Below, one piece after another: positions 863 to 7,439 of a stretch of 32,941 nucleotides of DNA. Each line of letters opens with the position of its first letter. Position 1 is the first letter of the stretch. Position numbers and translations under genes: made by a program. Source of the DNA: an uncultured Verrucomicrobiales bacterium (GTDB lineage: Bacteria; Verrucomicrobiota; Verrucomicrobiia; Verrucomicrobiales; Akkermansiaceae). The DNA is taken from the NCBI GenBank assembly GCA_937128235.1, contig CAKZMG010000263.1, forward strand, positions 1 through 32,941, written 5' to 3'. A model generated the notes under the pieces. It searched no databases, was not told where the DNA came from, and was given only the letters and a program-made list of their open reading frames with translations.

Positions 863-3800
863 ATGAAAATCCATTATCTCATCGCTACTCTAGTTTTAGG
901 AGCTTGCTGTCATTGTATGGCGCAGTTGGAGGTCTCAGAAAATTTATCGAGCAGTGCGGATGCCTCACTGAAGAAATTAGGAAGCTATCTTAATGGGCAA
1001 CTTGAGGAAAAAGATCTAGCTATATTTGTCTCAGGAGAATGGAAGGGAGTGAATATTGTAACGGTGGGAAAGATTGATCAAAGGGTAGTTCCGGGTGACA
1101 TAAAGGTTTCTATGAAGCCGGTGGATCTTACTGGAAAAATGTCAGATTCTATCTATTCTTTAGCGAAGTGGAAGGCGAGCTATGGGGAAAAAATTCACCG
1201 CACAAAATTTAAAATTGTTCGTGTGTTGGTAAATGAAGATCTCCCGGGTAAATTTACCACTGAGACACTCATGATGGCAATCTCCACTAAGAACGGTAAT
1301 CTTAACGAGGTGCACCAAAGATGGAAGGCACAATGGCAGATCAAAGGAGAGAAGGCGCAGTTACTCAATATGAATTTAATGAGTGAGCATGCAGCCGGGC
1401 TAGTAGGTGAAAAACCACTGTATGCAGACCGTACATCAGCGGTTCTGGCACAAGAAAAAGAGAGGGAAATATTACTCAATCAGGGAGCAAACTACTGGAT
1501 GCAACGGTTAGAGACGGCCTTGAGACCAGACTTTTTTGGCGAAACTGGTGTCAGTGTGGCTGATGTGAATGGAGATGGGAGAGAAGATGTTTATATTTCT
1601 CAGCTAGGCGGACTTCCTAATCAACTATTCATTCAGCAGCAGAACGGGGTGTTTAAGGAGCTTCAAAATGCGTTGGGATTAGACATACTGGATAACACGA
1701 CTGGTGCTGTCTTTGCGGATTTAGATAATGATGGTGATCAAGATGCCGTGCTGGCCACAGCAGGAGGAGTGGCTATCTATGAGAATGCTACGAGTGATAC
1801 GAGGACTGAGTTCGTCTTGAAAAAACAGTTTCCCAAAGCGATCTATGGCAATGGTATGTGCGTTGCTGACTATGATCAGGATGGGCTGTTAGATTTTTAC
1901 GTCTGCCAGTATTACGCTACGGTAGAGGATAAGAGGGGAAGGGAGAATACTGGGGCGAAACAACTGACTCGTGGAAACTTCCCAGCACCATACCCTGTCT
2001 TCGATGCTACGAATGGGGGGCGTAACGGGTTATATAGAAACACTGGTGAAATGGATTTCGAGGATGTCACAGATCTCGTAGGTCTGGGGGTGAGTAACAG
2101 CCGATACAGCTACGCAGCGATGTGGGAAGACTGGGATAATGACGGTGATCAAGACCTCTATGTGGTCAATGATTTTGGACCAAATATCTATTACCGGAAC
2201 GAGGGGGGAACATTCCTCGATGCATCACAGGAGTCAGGCCTAGTTGGTAAGGCTTTCGGGATGGGAGTTACTAGTGGAGATTACAATGGTGATGGCTGGA
2301 TGGATATACACGTTTCAAACATGTTTTCTTCTGCTGGTAGCAGAGTGACGCGTCAAAAAGAATTTAAATCAGACTCAAGTCCGCAGATAAAACGCATCTT
2401 TGAACTACTGGCTAGAGGAAATACTCTGATGGTGAATAAAGCAGGAAAATTTGAGGATAGCAGCGAGGAGTCAGGTATCACGGTGGGACGTTGGAGCTGG
2501 GGGTGTTTATCTCCAGACATAAATAATGATGGCTATGAAGACCTCCTAGTGGCGAATGGATTTGTTACTGGGAAAGAAAAGGATGACCTCTGAAGTTACT
2601 GGTGGCGACAGGTCTTGTCGAATGCTCCAACTACACTGCTAGAAGCTGAGAAAGCCTTCTCAAAAGACTCTGCCTACCTTGAACATCTAGGTAAAGTTAA
2701 CGGCATGATGCACCGGGGGAAGTCTCTCAGCGGGAGGGAGAGAAACTGTGTTTTCTTGAATAGAGGTGATGGATCATTTGCCACTATCTCTGCATTAAGT
2801 GGCTACGATATGGCTGATGATGCTCGTGGACTAGCGGTGATGGACTGGGACTTTGATGGTAAGTTAGATTTTTGGTCGTCTGCACGGACAGCGCCTCGCA
2901 TCCGCTTCATGCATAATGAGCTGGTAGAAAGTGGAGAATGGATAGGGTTTAAACTCCAAGGCAATGGTAAATCAAATCGTGACGCGATAGGATCACGAAT
3001 CACGGTGACATTAAAAAATGGGCGTAAAATAATCCGCACGCTCAGAGCCGGTGAAGGCTATGTTAGCCAATCAAGTAAATGGGTACATTTCGGGCTAGGT
3101 GAGATAAAAGAGCCAGTAGTAATTTCTATCCGATGGCCAGACGGCTCTATAGAAAAACACGCAGATGTGTCAGTAGGGAGTTATTATCAACTTACCCAAG
3201 GAAGTAAACTGGTTGTTCATCAAAACAGAGATCTGAGTAATTCAGCAAGTGGGGAGCCTCTGCAAGCGCCAAAGGTACCTGCCGGGATTAGGGTGCCACT
3301 GCGTATTGCTATTCCTGCGCCGCCGTTACCTTACACTGATGAGGCTAATAAAAATAAGGCATTAAATTTAAAGCTGACCAGACCGCTGCTCATAAATCTA
3401 TGGGATCATGAGTGTGTGGAATGTGTGAAGGAATTACAGGATTTATCTGAAGAATGGGTAAAACTAAATGGAAAAATAGATATACTAGCGCTTCACATGA
3501 ATCCATCCGATGGTGATGACGCGGAGGGAATCGCATTTTTAAAGAAACTCAATATTCCTATTCAGTATGGATTACCAAAAGCGATTTCTCGGAAGTTGTT
3601 AGTGGATATTTTTCATTCTACATTTCCGCTACAGGTAGATATACCAAGCCCTTCTTCGCTATTGATTTCTTCTCAAGGTGAAATTGTAGCTCTTTATACC
3701 CGTTCGATGTCTCCGGAGGAACTCCTCAAGGACGTGAAGGAGTTAGCAATGGTGGCGACTACGATGCAAGAGCGTGATGAACTGGCAGCCCCTTATAGCG

Positions 3801-4333
3801 GACGATGGCTAAAGCAACCTCAGGACCTCGATGTTTTGTACCTGGCTCGGCAATTACAAAATGCAGGTCATCTAGCTGAAGCAGCACTTTACACGCGTTC
3901 GGCTTCTAAGCAGCTCTCTAAGCATAAGGAGTATGCGCTGATGTTATTGTGGATAGCGGAGACTTATCTGGCAAGGGGTGACATTGAGCAGGCAATGGCC
4001 TTCTATAAGGATGCTCTTGCTAGGGGTGGGAGTAAACCACAGGTGCTTAATAATGTGGCATGGCTGTATGCAACGAGTAAACATGCGATGGCTAGGAATC
4101 CTTTAGAATCTGTTCGTCTAGCTTATCGCGCCTGTAAATTGACGGAATGGAAAAATCCATATTATCTTGATACCTTGGCAGCTTGTTATGCAAGTACTGG
4201 CGAATTTAAAAATGCGCTCCAAGTAGCTAACATGGCACTCGTCATTTCTAAGACATCTGGCGACAAAGCGCTACAGGCGAGTATTGAAAAAGCGATGCAG
4301 TTTTATATGAGATCTGTAGATCCAAATAAGTAA
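863..4333 (+). CDS. Candidate selenoprotein: FG-GAP/ASPIC-UnbV/thioredoxin-like/TPR protein with in-frame TGA (Sec)
   Basis: One continuous frame interrupted only by TGA at 2591-2593. Read through, it gives about 1156 residues with Sec at 577. The start is the ATG at 863: it opens a signal or lipoprotein leader (lipobox-like LGAC), whereas a GTG at 839 lies inside the preceding terminator. Seven FG-GAP/VCBS calcium-binding motifs of the D-x-[ND]-x-D-G-x-x-D type sit at about residues 234, 286, 336, 423, 473, 552 and 661. Six precede the TGA and one follows, so a seven-bladed propeller needs readthrough. After it come an ASPIC/UnbV domain (about 690-780), a thioredoxin-like segment with CVEC at 851-854, and TPR repeats (about 985-1150). 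The residues around the site are KDDL-U-SYWWRQVLSNAP. A SECIS-like hairpin starts 15 bases after the stop codon. The protein is probably extracytoplasmic; its substrate is unknown. The alternative is a pseudogene split by a nonsense mutation, but both halves look intact. The Sec machinery is not in this window. Confidence 0.82.
2591..2632 (+). promoter_or_regulatory. Putative bacterial SECIS element (UGA plus stem-loop)
   Basis: TGA (2591-2593) is followed by 17 nt and then the loop GGTCT (2611-2615), held by a perfect 5-bp stem CGACA/TGTCG (2606-2610 with 2616-2620). A lower helix is possible: AGTT 2594-2597 with AACT 2629-2632, and GG 2601-2602 with CC 2627-2628. Known bacterial SECIS elements sit directly 3' of UGA inside the coding sequence and present a GU-containing apical loop to SelB. 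The E. coli fdhF element also has a GGUCU loop at nearly the same distance. The hairpin is seen directly; the function is inferred. Confidence 0.75.
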
Positions 4334-4350
4334 GCGATATTACTTAGCGT
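4327..4350. terminator. Weak hairpin between convergent genes
   Basis: TAAGTAA / TTACTTA (7 bp, loop GCGATA) covers the stop codons of the two convergent genes ending at 4333 and 4340 and is followed by GCGTTTTG. It is AT-rich and has a short T run, so it is a weak bidirectional terminator candidate at best. Confidence 0.3.
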
Positions 4351-6616
4351 TTTGTAGATCTTTCTCTGTCCATGGTTGAGTTCTTTTCGCAGCTTTTTCG
4401 CGGTAGATTTTGACTTGATCCACAGTGATCTGAGATGCTTCGTTTTCACCTAGGTTGCGGATGTAGTTGATGAGATCAGCGAGGTCTGAGTCTTTCTGGA
4501 GTGCCGTGTTCGCATTGTTTGGAGGCATGGCTACTGCGGTTTTAAATCTCTCTCCATTGAGAGTGATGGGACCAGTGAGGCCATTCATGATGACTTTGGT
4601 AAGGCGCTCCGGGTCGCCTGTGACCCAGTCTGATGGAGCTAGGGGCGGGAAGCCGGGTGCTGGAGCCTCTCCTTGCATGCCGTGGCAGCTTGCACAGGCT
4701 GCTGCGGCATAGACTTTCTCACCGCGCTTGAAGCTGGCTAGGTATTCTCCAGTGAGTCCCTCTCCAGATTTTTTCACCACGTTGGCAATGTGCTTTGAGC
4801 CTGCTTTTTTGATGAGATTGGCGAGTTTTTTGTCGCGGATGTTTGCGTTGGCTATTTTCTTGTTTTTAGATTTGGTAGTGCCTGTTAGATAGGCTTCTTG
4901 TAGGTATGAAATTTTAGGGAATTTCTTAATATTTTTATCTGCACGTGCAATTGATGCTTTGGTATTGATGACACCGAGAGCGTAAAGGTAAGAATTTGCT
5001 GCTTGCGATTTTGGCTGTGGGATAAGCTCAATGATACTTTGTGGAGTATTAGTGATGTGCGCTAGCTCTAGGGCGGATGTTTGCACGGAGAGATCAGTAG
5101 ATTTGATCGCGGTATTGAATACTTCTGTGGGAATGTTTCCGGTAGCCTCAAGTGACCAGAGGATATGGAGCTGCTGAAGTGGGTTCTTACTTGCCAGAAA
5201 TTCCTTGGTGAGGAGTGCTACCAGTGATGAGTTACCAGCTGTGAGTTTTGAGGTAATTTGAAGCTGTGCTTTGTCTCTAACAGTTCCATTCGTATGTCCG
5301 AGATGCTGGATGAGTTCAGCGTCGTCGAGTGTGCTGAGCTTAGGAACTTTCGCGAGTGGGGCAGAGTTGTGAGAGAGCCTGTAGATTCTGCCGTTGTTTG
5401 GCTTTGGTTTATCAAGACCTCTTGAGCTGTATTGCTTTCTGAGGTAGCTGGTCATGTAGGCTTTATGCTGAATGAGACCAAAATGGAGATCGAGCACCCA
5501 TGCGGAACCATCTGGTGCGGTGTAGATATTTACGGGGCGGAACCACTCATCTGTGGATGCGATGAGTTCTTTTTTGCCAAGCGGGTGGCTTCCGTTGGGG
5601 CGGTTTTGTGCATCACGCTTGATGTCGATAAGTTTGATGAGGTTCGCGCATGGTGAGGTGACTATTCCCATTCCTTGATATTTTTCTGGGAATTGGTTCC
5701 CACGGTAAATGGTCATGCCTGCGGCAGCGGTGGTTTTTTTTAATTTGCCTGTCTTCTCGTGCAGCAGTCCTTTTTGATAAGCGCGGTTTACACCTGGGTT
5801 CACGCGTATCGGGTAAACTTCGTTACCTCCGATACGTTGGCTAGCTTTGTATTTAAAGGAGACCTCTGGGTGATGGTAGTGCAGGCCTGGACGCTGGGTG
5901 TCACCTACGAGTAATGTCGAGTTGTTATTGTGGTAGAGCTTGCCTTGGTTGTCTTGAGCGATGCCCCATTGACCACGGAAAAGTGTTTTTTGTTTCACCC
6001 ATTTCCCGTTAATACAGCGGTAGCGGTAGTTGGATTTTGCATTGTAATACCAGTTGTCTAAGCCGCGGAGTAAGCCATTAGATTTATGCTCAGGGTTGCC
6101 GCCTTTTGCATAGTCTCTATCTACTAGTTCTGGCTCGCCAACAGGCTTTAGCCCATCTCGTTTGATGAAGAAGAGCTGATCTTTATGCGCAAAGAGCACA
6201 CCGTCTGGTGTGACTGCGATAGCTCTCGGGATGATGAGTTTGTCCAGAAATGTGGTGATTTTATCGAGCTTGCCATCGCCATTGGTGTCTTCTAGCACTC
6301 GGATCTGACCGGTGGGTTCATTTTCGCGGGTGCCGTCTAAATTTATCATGTAATTACGCATCTCTACTACCCAGGCTCTGCCATCGGCATCGAAGTCTAG
6401 GGCTACGGGCATGCATACCATTTCTCCGTGAGCGATCGGCTCTAGCTTAAAGCCATCTGCGACTTCAAATGTTTTCATGGAGTCTTCAATGCCTAAGTAT
6501 GGGGCGGGTGGAATCTCGCTCGCTGGGATAGGTTCTGGCTGTGGTTTACCCCTATCGCCTTGTTGAGCCAAGATGCTAGAGATGCCCAGTGCTGATAATA
6601 GAAGTATGCGTTTCAT
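4340..6616 (-). CDS. PVC-type c-heme membrane-associated dehydrogenase (beta-propeller plus cytochrome c)
   Basis: 758 residues with a signal peptide (MKRILLLSALGISSILAQ) and a long N-terminal region (about 40-410) of the PVC 'putative membrane-bound dehydrogenase' type. That region resembles a sugar/glucose-dehydrogenase beta-propeller, with VALDFDADGRAWVVEMRNY and VLEDTNGDGKLDKITTFLDK as typical segments. A helical region follows (about 430-620), probably HEAT-like. The C-terminal cytochrome c domain has heme motif CASCH at 641-645 and a likely axial Met near 697 in AMPPN. The likely role is periplasmic oxidation of a sugar-type substrate with electrons passed to the heme. It is the second gene of an operon, 15 nt after the DUF1080 lipoprotein gene, a pairing common in Verrucomicrobiota and Planctomycetota. 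The family assignment is firm; the substrate is unknown. Confidence 0.88.
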   Translation of the reverse strand: MKRILLLSALGISSILAQQGDRGKPQPEPIPASEIPPAPYLGIEDSMKTFEVADGFKLEPIAHGEMVCMPVALDFDADGRAWVVEMRNYMINLDGTRENEPTGQIRVLEDTNGDGKLDKITTFLDKLIIPRAIAVTPDGVLFAHKDQLFFIKRDGLKPVGEPELVDRDYAKGGNPEHKSNGLLRGLDNWYYNAKSNYRYRCINGKWVKQKTLFRGQWGIAQDNQGKLYHNNNSTLLVGDTQRPGLHYHHPEVSFKYKASQRIGGNEVYPIRVNPGVNRAYQKGLLHEKTGKLKKTTAAAGMTIYRGNQFPEKYQGMGIVTSPCANLIKLIDIKRDAQNRPNGSHPLGKKELIASTDEWFRPVNIYTAPDGSAWVLDLHFGLIQHKAYMTSYLRKQYSSRGLDKPKPNNGRIYRLSHNSAPLAKVPKLSTLDDAELIQHLGHTNGTVRDKAQLQITSKLTAGNSSLVALLTKEFLASKNPLQQLHILWSLEATGNIPTEVFNTAIKSTDLSVQTSALELAHITNTPQSIIELIPQPKSQAANSYLYALGVINTKASIARADKNIKKFPKISYLQEAYLTGTTKSKNKKIANANIRDKKLANLIKKAGSKHIANVVKKSGEGLTGEYLASFKRGEKVYAAAACASCHGMQGEAPAPGFPPLAPSDWVTGDPERLTKVIMNGLTGPITLNGERFKTAVAMPPNNANTALQKDSDLADLINYIRNLGENEASQITVDQVKIYREKAAKRTQPWTEKDLQNAK

Positions 6617-6631
6617 GATGAAGGTAGTGAT

Positions 6632-7369
6632 TTATTTAAGTTCTTTGAGAACGATGTTTTTCCAGCGTGCTTGGAAGGATTTACCTCCATGCACTTGAAG
6701 CCCGATGAAGCCTTCGCGGGTGTCATGTTTCTCATCTTTATCTACGAAGTCCACGCGCTTCTCGCCATTGAGCCAAGTCTGGATGTGGTTTCCTTTGCAG
6801 CGGATTTTGATGGTGTTCCAGCCTTCCCAGTTGAATTTTTCGTTTCCTTGTTTGGTGAATTTTTTTGCGAGTTCGACTTCTGCTTCGGTCTTGCCTTTAG
6901 TCGGGTAGAGCCATCCTCTGCGGGCTTCGTCATAGAGTCCTGCTGTCCAGCCTCGCTTGGTGTTATCGCCCTCGCACTGGTAGCCAAAGACTCTGCCGTT
7001 ACCGTCTTCAGAAGGTTTCTGGTTAGCTCTGAACATGACGCCAGAGTTTCCTTTTAGGTGATCAAATTTAAACTCAAAGGTGAGTTCGAAGTCCTTGTAA
7101 GTTTTCTCTGTCCGTAGAAATGTGTTGCCTCTAATATTTTCTCCAAATCCTACAATGCAGTCGCCTTCAATTTTGTATTGTCCGTTCCCGCCTACTATTT
7201 TCCATCCAGCGAGGTCTTTTCCATTGAAGAGTGGGGTGCCTTTGTCTTCTTCTTTAGCTTCGGTTTTAGTGTTTTCCTTAGTTTCTGGTGCTTTCTCTTT
7301 CGAGCATGCTGAGAGTGAGAGGCTGCAGCTGAGGAATGTGAGAGCGAATATAGAATTTCTGTGTTTCAT
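6632..7369 (-). CDS. DUF1080 (3-keto-disaccharide hydrolase type) lipoprotein
   Basis: About 245 residues from the ATG at 7369; an upstream start at 7387 would only add MLVVMI ahead of the leader. The leader ends in a lipobox (LSAC), so this is a lipoprotein, followed by a Lys/Glu/Thr-rich linker. The rest is a DUF1080 concanavalin-like sandwich: GTPLFNGKDLAGW near the start, then SGVMFRANQ, QCEGDN, NTIKIRCKGNHIQTWLNG and a closing F-x-A-R-W-K-N-I-x-L-K-E-L. DUF1080 proteins are abundant in PVC bacteria; some members cleave 3-keto-glycosides. With the downstream heme dehydrogenase this suggests oxidation-assisted glycoside cleavage in the periplasm. The family is firm; the reaction is inferred. 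Confidence 0.87.
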   Translation of the reverse strand: MKHRNSIFALTFLSCSLSLSACSKEKAPETKENTKTEAKEEDKGTPLFNGKDLAGWKIVGGNGQYKIEGDCIVGFGENIRGNTFLRTEKTYKDFELTFEFKFDHLKGNSGVMFRANQKPSEDGNGRVFGYQCEGDNTKRGWTAGLYDEARRGWLYPTKGKTEAEVELAKKFTKQGNEKFNWEGWNTIKIRCKGNHIQTWLNGEKRVDFVDKDEKHDTREGFIGLQVHGGKSFQARWKNIVLKELK

Positions 7370-7439
7370 AATCATTACTACTAGCATAGGAATAATGATA
7401 TTTCACCCTAATTGTCGCATTGTAGCAGAACGAATAGTT

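Follow-up and report, generated by a model that had tools for sequence, protein, structure and literature searches.

The locus

The window (the whole stretch of 32 941 nt that was analysed) contains, at positions 863–4333 of the plus strand, two long stretches, 863–2590 and 2594–4330, that are open in one frame; the TGA at 2591–2593 stands between them and the stop codon TAA at 4331–4333 follows. A preliminary description of this DNA had claimed two same-frame stretches split by TGA alone, and the translation confirms one frame interrupted by a single TGA. The other two forward frames across the same interval hold 86 and 104 stops, and the probability of 579 stop-free codons past the TGA is ∼5e-17 by a crude estimate from base composition. 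The portion 5′ of the TGA has 576 residues counted from the ATG at 863, or 584 counted from the GTG at 839. The in-frame stop codon makes a large protein look interrupted; almost certainly the protein is a single intact one, in which that codon stands for selenocysteine (Sec). The features of the locus are as follows.

863–4333, plus strand: predicted single coding sequence of 1156 residues including one Sec (U577), from the open frame and from homologues with one in-frame TGA
863–925, plus strand: N-terminal signal peptide or lipoprotein leader (MKIHYLIATLVLGACCHCMAQ), judged by eye from the translation
1562–2542, plus strand: FG-GAP repeats, six Ca-binding-type motifs (DVNGDGRED to DINNDGYED), by eye and by Pfam FG-GAP_3
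2591–2593, plus strand: TGA, predicted Sec codon, residue 577, motif KDDL-U-SYWWRQV, from TGA/Cys in the loci of relatives
2606–2620, plus strand: putative bacterial SECIS-type hairpin, stem CGACA/UGUCG, loop GGUCU, from covariation and codon choice
2843–2869, plus strand: seventh FG-GAP-type motif, DWDFDGKLD, 3′ of the TGA, by eye
2984–3187, plus strand: ASPIC/UnbV domain (PF07593, 58.3 bits)
3311–3694, plus strand: TlpA/ResA-like thioredoxin domain, residues 817–944, with CxxC at 3413–3424, from phmmer, profile and CxxC conservation
3794–4252, plus strand: TPR repeats, from domain searches (including NCBIfam)

Upstream, at 83–793 of the window, a PEP-CTERM protein is encoded, while the minus strand of 4340–7387 encodes a DUF7133-cytochrome c protein and a 3-keto-disaccharide hydrolase domain protein.

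Domain architecture

The order of domains is leader, N-terminal part, six FG-GAP motifs, the UGA, the seventh motif, ASPIC/UnbV, a TlpA-like domain with CVEC and TPR; the N-terminal part ahead of the FG-GAP motifs has no significant Pfam match. The six motifs 5′ of the TGA and DWDFDGKLD 3′ of it, both named in the preliminary description, are seen by eye in the translation, and Pfam places FG-GAP_3 in five stretches. The downstream ASPIC/UnbV domain that had been proposed was recovered by Pfam as UnbV_ASPIC at residues 708–775, scoring 58.3 bits (cut-off 23.4). With PF13517, PF01839 and PF07593 all exceeding their cut-offs, the protein combines the FG-GAP repeats and UnbV_ASPIC domain by which members of the CRTAC1 / ASPIC-UnbV family are recognized.

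The TlpA-like domain (residues 817–944) and the TPR end had been overlooked. The former matches TlpA (1jfu) in phmmer with an E-value of 1.3e-5, and in profile comparison it matches TlpA (5.4e-14) and ResA (5.3e-11); for this part Pfam lists no thioredoxin family, and none of the NCBIfam TlpA, ResA and DsbE models is over its cut-off. Homology and the CxxC place it among the TlpA/ResA thioredoxin-like domains, with a predicted disulfide reductase activity. An AlphaFold model built from six sequences had a pLDDT of 56.7 (∼43 around the Sec), too weak to place the Sec relative to the CxxC, and was used solely for domain-level fold matches; these were clear in Foldseek for CRTAC1, TlpA and ResA.

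The predicted Sec codon in related genomes

The window protein, with U written as C, was searched against 142 relatives. It matched 90 of them, and the strongest among the matches listed nearly all carry exactly one TGA. The codon aligned to residue 577 was determined in 70 loci (the best match of 30 genomes, 20 loci picked for having one TGA and 20 mixed): it is TGA in 55, TGC (Cys) in 6 and another codon or a gap in 9. This choice of loci inflates the proportion with TGA and is biased towards full-length forms. The nine loci without TGA or Cys are divergent, the site segment being missing or unlike. The TGC forms read KDYC(T/S)xFW, with Cys aligned in the same column as Sec; two more Cys forms (L150, L151) came from the search of the phylum. 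Conservation extends to the residues flanking the site, and in 35 rows chosen from the 61 TGA/Cys loci the TGA/Cys column is invariant. The alignment of homologues, which had been suggested as a check, thus bore out an in-frame UGA that is conserved and exchanges with Cys.

In a scan of named genomes, all five Verrucomicrobia MAG loci have TGA (5/5). Re-examination of 14 further matches gave TGA at the site in 12; of the other two, one runs to the end of its contig and the other, G119:C196, has stops and is without the site. G094:C101 (L077) was rejected as a member with TGA at the site, its aligned codon being CGC and its TGA lying elsewhere. As for homologues that end at the site, which had been named as contrary evidence, two strong stop-less matches end near it: G074:C94 ends with its contig, and in G053:C139 the TGA lies just before the contig end.

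The sites fall into two types, ‘long’ and ‘short’, by our own definitions made from these sequences. A model of the long type, the only one counted here, found 117 copies in 26 of the 142 relatives under stricter filters (per-genome matches summed by hand). These counts bear on the explanation by pseudogene or sequencing error, i.e. an ordinary FG-GAP/ASPIC gene disrupted in the source genome by a nonsense mutation. A lone TGA within an otherwise intact ORF is in line with such an event; however, TGA occupies the same codon in most of the loci compared, and the independent genomes with TGA in the same column, together with the 117 copies of the site, refute it. Extra TAA or TAG codons do not restore the argument, as the extra stops in three G056 matches were, where looked at, the gene's end, and at G036 they are not within the matched part. 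We give this explanation practically no chance.

Another possibility is that two proteins are made, one ending at 2593 and the other begun from its own start further downstream. The TTG at 2615 opens an ORF of 572 aa that could serve for the second; however, as the preliminary description had it, this triplet starts within the hairpin, at the last base of the loop GGUCU (2611–2615). Also, the conservation spans both sides of the site, the Cys forms continue through it without a stop, and TAA or TAG occurs at the aligned codon in 0 of the 70 loci. Two separate products are therefore very improbable, and the reading as one protein with Sec at the UGA is preferred.

The hairpin downstream of the UGA

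In the window the arms CGACA (2606–2610) and UGUCG (2616–2620) form a stem of 5 bp around the loop, 17 nt after the UGA. A bacterial SECIS model in a review of 2026 (PMC13188914, in the part available) has a loop of 3–9 nt with G in the first two positions, a spacing of 16–37 nt and an upper stem of 4–16 bp; the geometry of the window hairpin agrees with it. Folding energies of −8.6 kcal/mol (53 nt), −7.0 kcal/mol (40 nt) and −13.1 kcal/mol (71 nt, with another pairing pattern) compare with the value of −7.5 kcal/mol or lower that is set for that model in the same part of the review. Folding energy as evidence of a SECIS was, however, rejected as non-discriminating: for the three stretches tried, 175, 129 and 187 of 200 shuffles folded at least as well, and 27% of 30 855 control windows reach the folding energy of the median TGA site. 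Across the window Rfam called tRNA-Val alone and no SECIS family. The claim of a SECIS-like hairpin therefore stands as to the expected distance and gains conservation with covariation across relatives, while as a single sequence the hairpin is not unusually stable; its support comes from the relatives rather than from its own stability.

Among 40 sites of the long type (39 distinct), the stem columns 15–20/26–31 have 94.0% of cells paired, as compared with at most 66.2% in slid structures; double-sided changes are present in three of the six pairs, and the covariation score was matched by 0 of 500 shuffles. In the nine short-type sites the loop is 4 nt and 92.6% of cells are paired (slid structures, at most 66.7%); their covariation score was matched by 1 of 500 shuffles. 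In both registers the relatives have thus kept a GGUC-loop hairpin through compensatory changes. L092, L094 and L095 show, by eye, a third solution, WRRVSS, where G-C replaces A-U; with the co-varying stem bases, it indicates that the residues vary while the hairpin persists.

Codon choice follows the same pattern. Of the 55 TGA loci, 51 use GTC for the first Val, which lies in the loop (background 0.36 of Val), 46 have AGT directly after the UGA (background 0.12 of Ser) and 44 have CAG at the Gln/Thr position; relatedness among the loci inflates these counts as well as those for the hairpin. The 55 loci comprise 51 distinct 48-nt windows, of which 49 were aligned (40 long and 9 short) and two, L052 and L059, were left out. 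We also observed a third motif, PDG-U-SCLWQVVVSQ, in L171 (G053:C34) and L172 (G045:C75), followed by sequence unlike both hairpin types; a second TGA at G053:C34, near the end of the match, looks like a stop. The source genome has a second family member, at G000:C260:5498-7210 (L071, L158), which is a short form (DLUSCFWRTVV) with a 4-nt-loop hairpin and no CxxC downstream.

Selenocysteine machinery and distribution of the site

The preliminary description had proposed a search for selA, selB, selD and the tRNA-Sec gene, and had named a genome lacking selB/selC as contrary evidence. All four were found together, over cut-off, in the source genome (347 contigs, 94.6% complete): selA with 504.3 bits, selB with 267.8, selD with 378.0 and tRNA-Sec, anticodon tca, with 62.3. 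Only matches over cut-off were counted; low-score matches to selB, selD and tRNA-Sec appeared in all 14 control genomes, being over cut-off in 2, 2 and 5 of them, respectively, and selA was over cut-off in 1 of 14. The selD gene (G000:C15:35565-36491, L048) is itself a selenoprotein gene, with TGA in GGUASK.

A selA match is present in 26 of the 26 genomes with the long-type site (25 over cut-off, that of G128 being a fragment) versus 36 of the 116 others (Fisher p 1e-11, not corrected for kinship). The 80 genomes lacking selA accordingly have no long-type site, whereas the 36 genomes with selA and no long-type site make selA not predictive of the Sec form. The family is much duplicated. All long-type sites in G053 (12) and G045 (11) coincide with family matches; G053 has 18 TGA sites, 12 long and 6 short (one of these cut by a contig end and one the variant PDG-U-SCLW), and G045 has 14, including L166, L172 and L173. 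In a sample of 387 genomes of the phylum, the TGA-bearing ones among the matches listed were only the source genome and G462, a distant genome that also has selA. The Cys form was seen in eight genomes: G117, G114, G008, G406 and G452 are without selA, G102 and G120 have selA and no long-type site, and G036 has selA, the Cys form and TGA forms together. Weaker non-TGA matches were in G426, G348 and G443, all without selA.

These distributions are relevant to the reading of the UGA as an amino acid other than Sec, by reassignment of the codon or by plain read-through. TGA is rare as a stop, terminating 2 of the 23 chosen ORFs of the window, as such a reading would have it; these two ORFs also imply that TGA works as a stop here too. 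Against it, Cys is the alternative wherever the segment is conserved, the long-type site is found only alongside selA, a conserved hairpin lies 3′ of the UGA, and nearly all strong matches carry one TGA, not many. We consider reassignment or read-through highly unlikely.

Comparison of the loci thus shows a UGA at one codon, swapping with Cys and followed by a conserved hairpin, with the long-type site in selA genomes only. The selenoprotein reading of 863–4333 is strongly supported by this comparative sequence evidence, and the gene very probably encodes one exported selenoprotein of the CRTAC1-type (FG-GAP/ASPIC-UnbV) family with Sec at the UGA.

The redox domain and a possible mechanism

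The TlpA-type CxxC, with both its Cys, is kept in all 46 long TGA forms examined. Among the Cys/Sec positions of the window protein, only 577, 851 and 854 are shared by every one of them; Cys 629 and 348 are common, not fixed. A downstream CxxC is present in 2 of 9 short TGA forms and in 0 of 6 Cys forms, and no second Cys is kept across all forms. The two short forms, L167:3965-5104 (also L074) and L075, carry CPAC and CPSC, tails that perhaps represent a separate gain of a thioredoxin-like domain. No thioredoxin-like partner gene stood out, by eye, among the neighbours of ten short-form loci; this, together with the scarcity of CxxC in short forms, indicates that reduction in cis is not general.

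SelB bound to a SECIS hairpin delivers Sec-tRNA at a UGA, and here SelB on the hairpin would do so at 2591–2593. The Sec would lie in a segment inserted between FG-GAP motifs six and seven and act as the redox-active residue, oxidized by a substrate that might be a peroxide or a disulfide. In long forms the CxxC of the fused TlpA-like domain may return the selenol to its reduced state in cis; in short forms without this domain an outside thiol would take that role. The role of the propeller would be to hold the substrate, that of the TPR end to hold a partner. A redox centre of this kind, with one Sec and with reduction in cis in the long forms, is plausible from the conservation described.

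Alternatively, the protein could be a selenoprotein whose Sec takes no catalytic part in thiol chemistry, serving as a metal ligand or a structural link in the propeller. FG-GAP motifs are of the Ca-binding type, most short forms are without a thioredoxin domain and no second Cys is common to all forms, which would fit; the TlpA CxxC, kept throughout the long forms examined, argues against it. A non-catalytic Sec seems to us unlikely, albeit with some weight. If the redox reading is right, one could speculate about a class of beta-propeller selenoenzymes, with Sec in a CRTAC1-type insert recharged by a thioredoxin of the same chain, the 18 TGA sites of one Verrucomicrobia genome serving many extracytoplasmic substrates; we regard this broader picture as possible, somewhat short of probable.

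Novelty and comparison with known systems

To our knowledge, no bacterial role is known for CRTAC1-type proteins, and with the Sec they gain a likely active-site residue as a target for tests. Annotation that takes TGA as a stop would divide each such gene into two pieces, and a large protein family has therefore likely been misread as fragments. One family alone would make some Verrucomicrobia rich in selenoproteins; as the largest bacterial sets of selenoprotein genes number 57 and 63 in the part of PMC13188914 available, 18 sites of one family in G053 are notable, not a record.

The preliminary description was aware of no selenoprotein family built in this way. Table 1 of PMC13188914, as far as available, lists 119 prokaryotic selenoprotein families and subfamilies, many with redox motifs, and has no FG-GAP, ASPIC/UnbV or CRTAC1 among its 119 entries; NCBIfam selenoprotein models do not match the window protein; and the literature, partially covered, had no ASPIC/UnbV, FG-GAP, CRTAC1 or beta-propeller selenoprotein, Verrucomicrobia included, among the matches listed. 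Selenoproteins were reported in Planctomycetes (PMC4807772), and with the candidates of that paper partly covered, an earlier listing of the family is possible. The sequences thus point to a real selenoprotein family of uncatalogued architecture, new within the covered parts of these sources.

With the families of the PMC13188914 catalogue (in the part available) the window family shares UGA/Sec. To CRTAC1 (cartilage acidic protein 1) the protein is similar in its UnbV_ASPIC domain, in its best match to a solved sequence (9etn, E-value 3.4e-12) and in the best fold match of the model, again 9etn (Foldseek E-value 4.4e-22, TM 0.66 on the target). However, the profile of the site aligns to CRTAC1 only as far as the residues preceding the Sec segment, and the matched chain has 586 residues, roughly half the length, with no TlpA or TPR part matched. 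The TlpA/ResA thiol-disulfide oxidoreductases resemble the protein in the profile matches and the kept CxxC, whereas here the domain is one part of a much larger Sec protein. The SECIS of Escherichia coli fdhF has the loop GGUCU and a UGA-to-loop spacing of ∼17–18 nt; in both respects the window hairpin is like it, while the coding sequence is unrelated.
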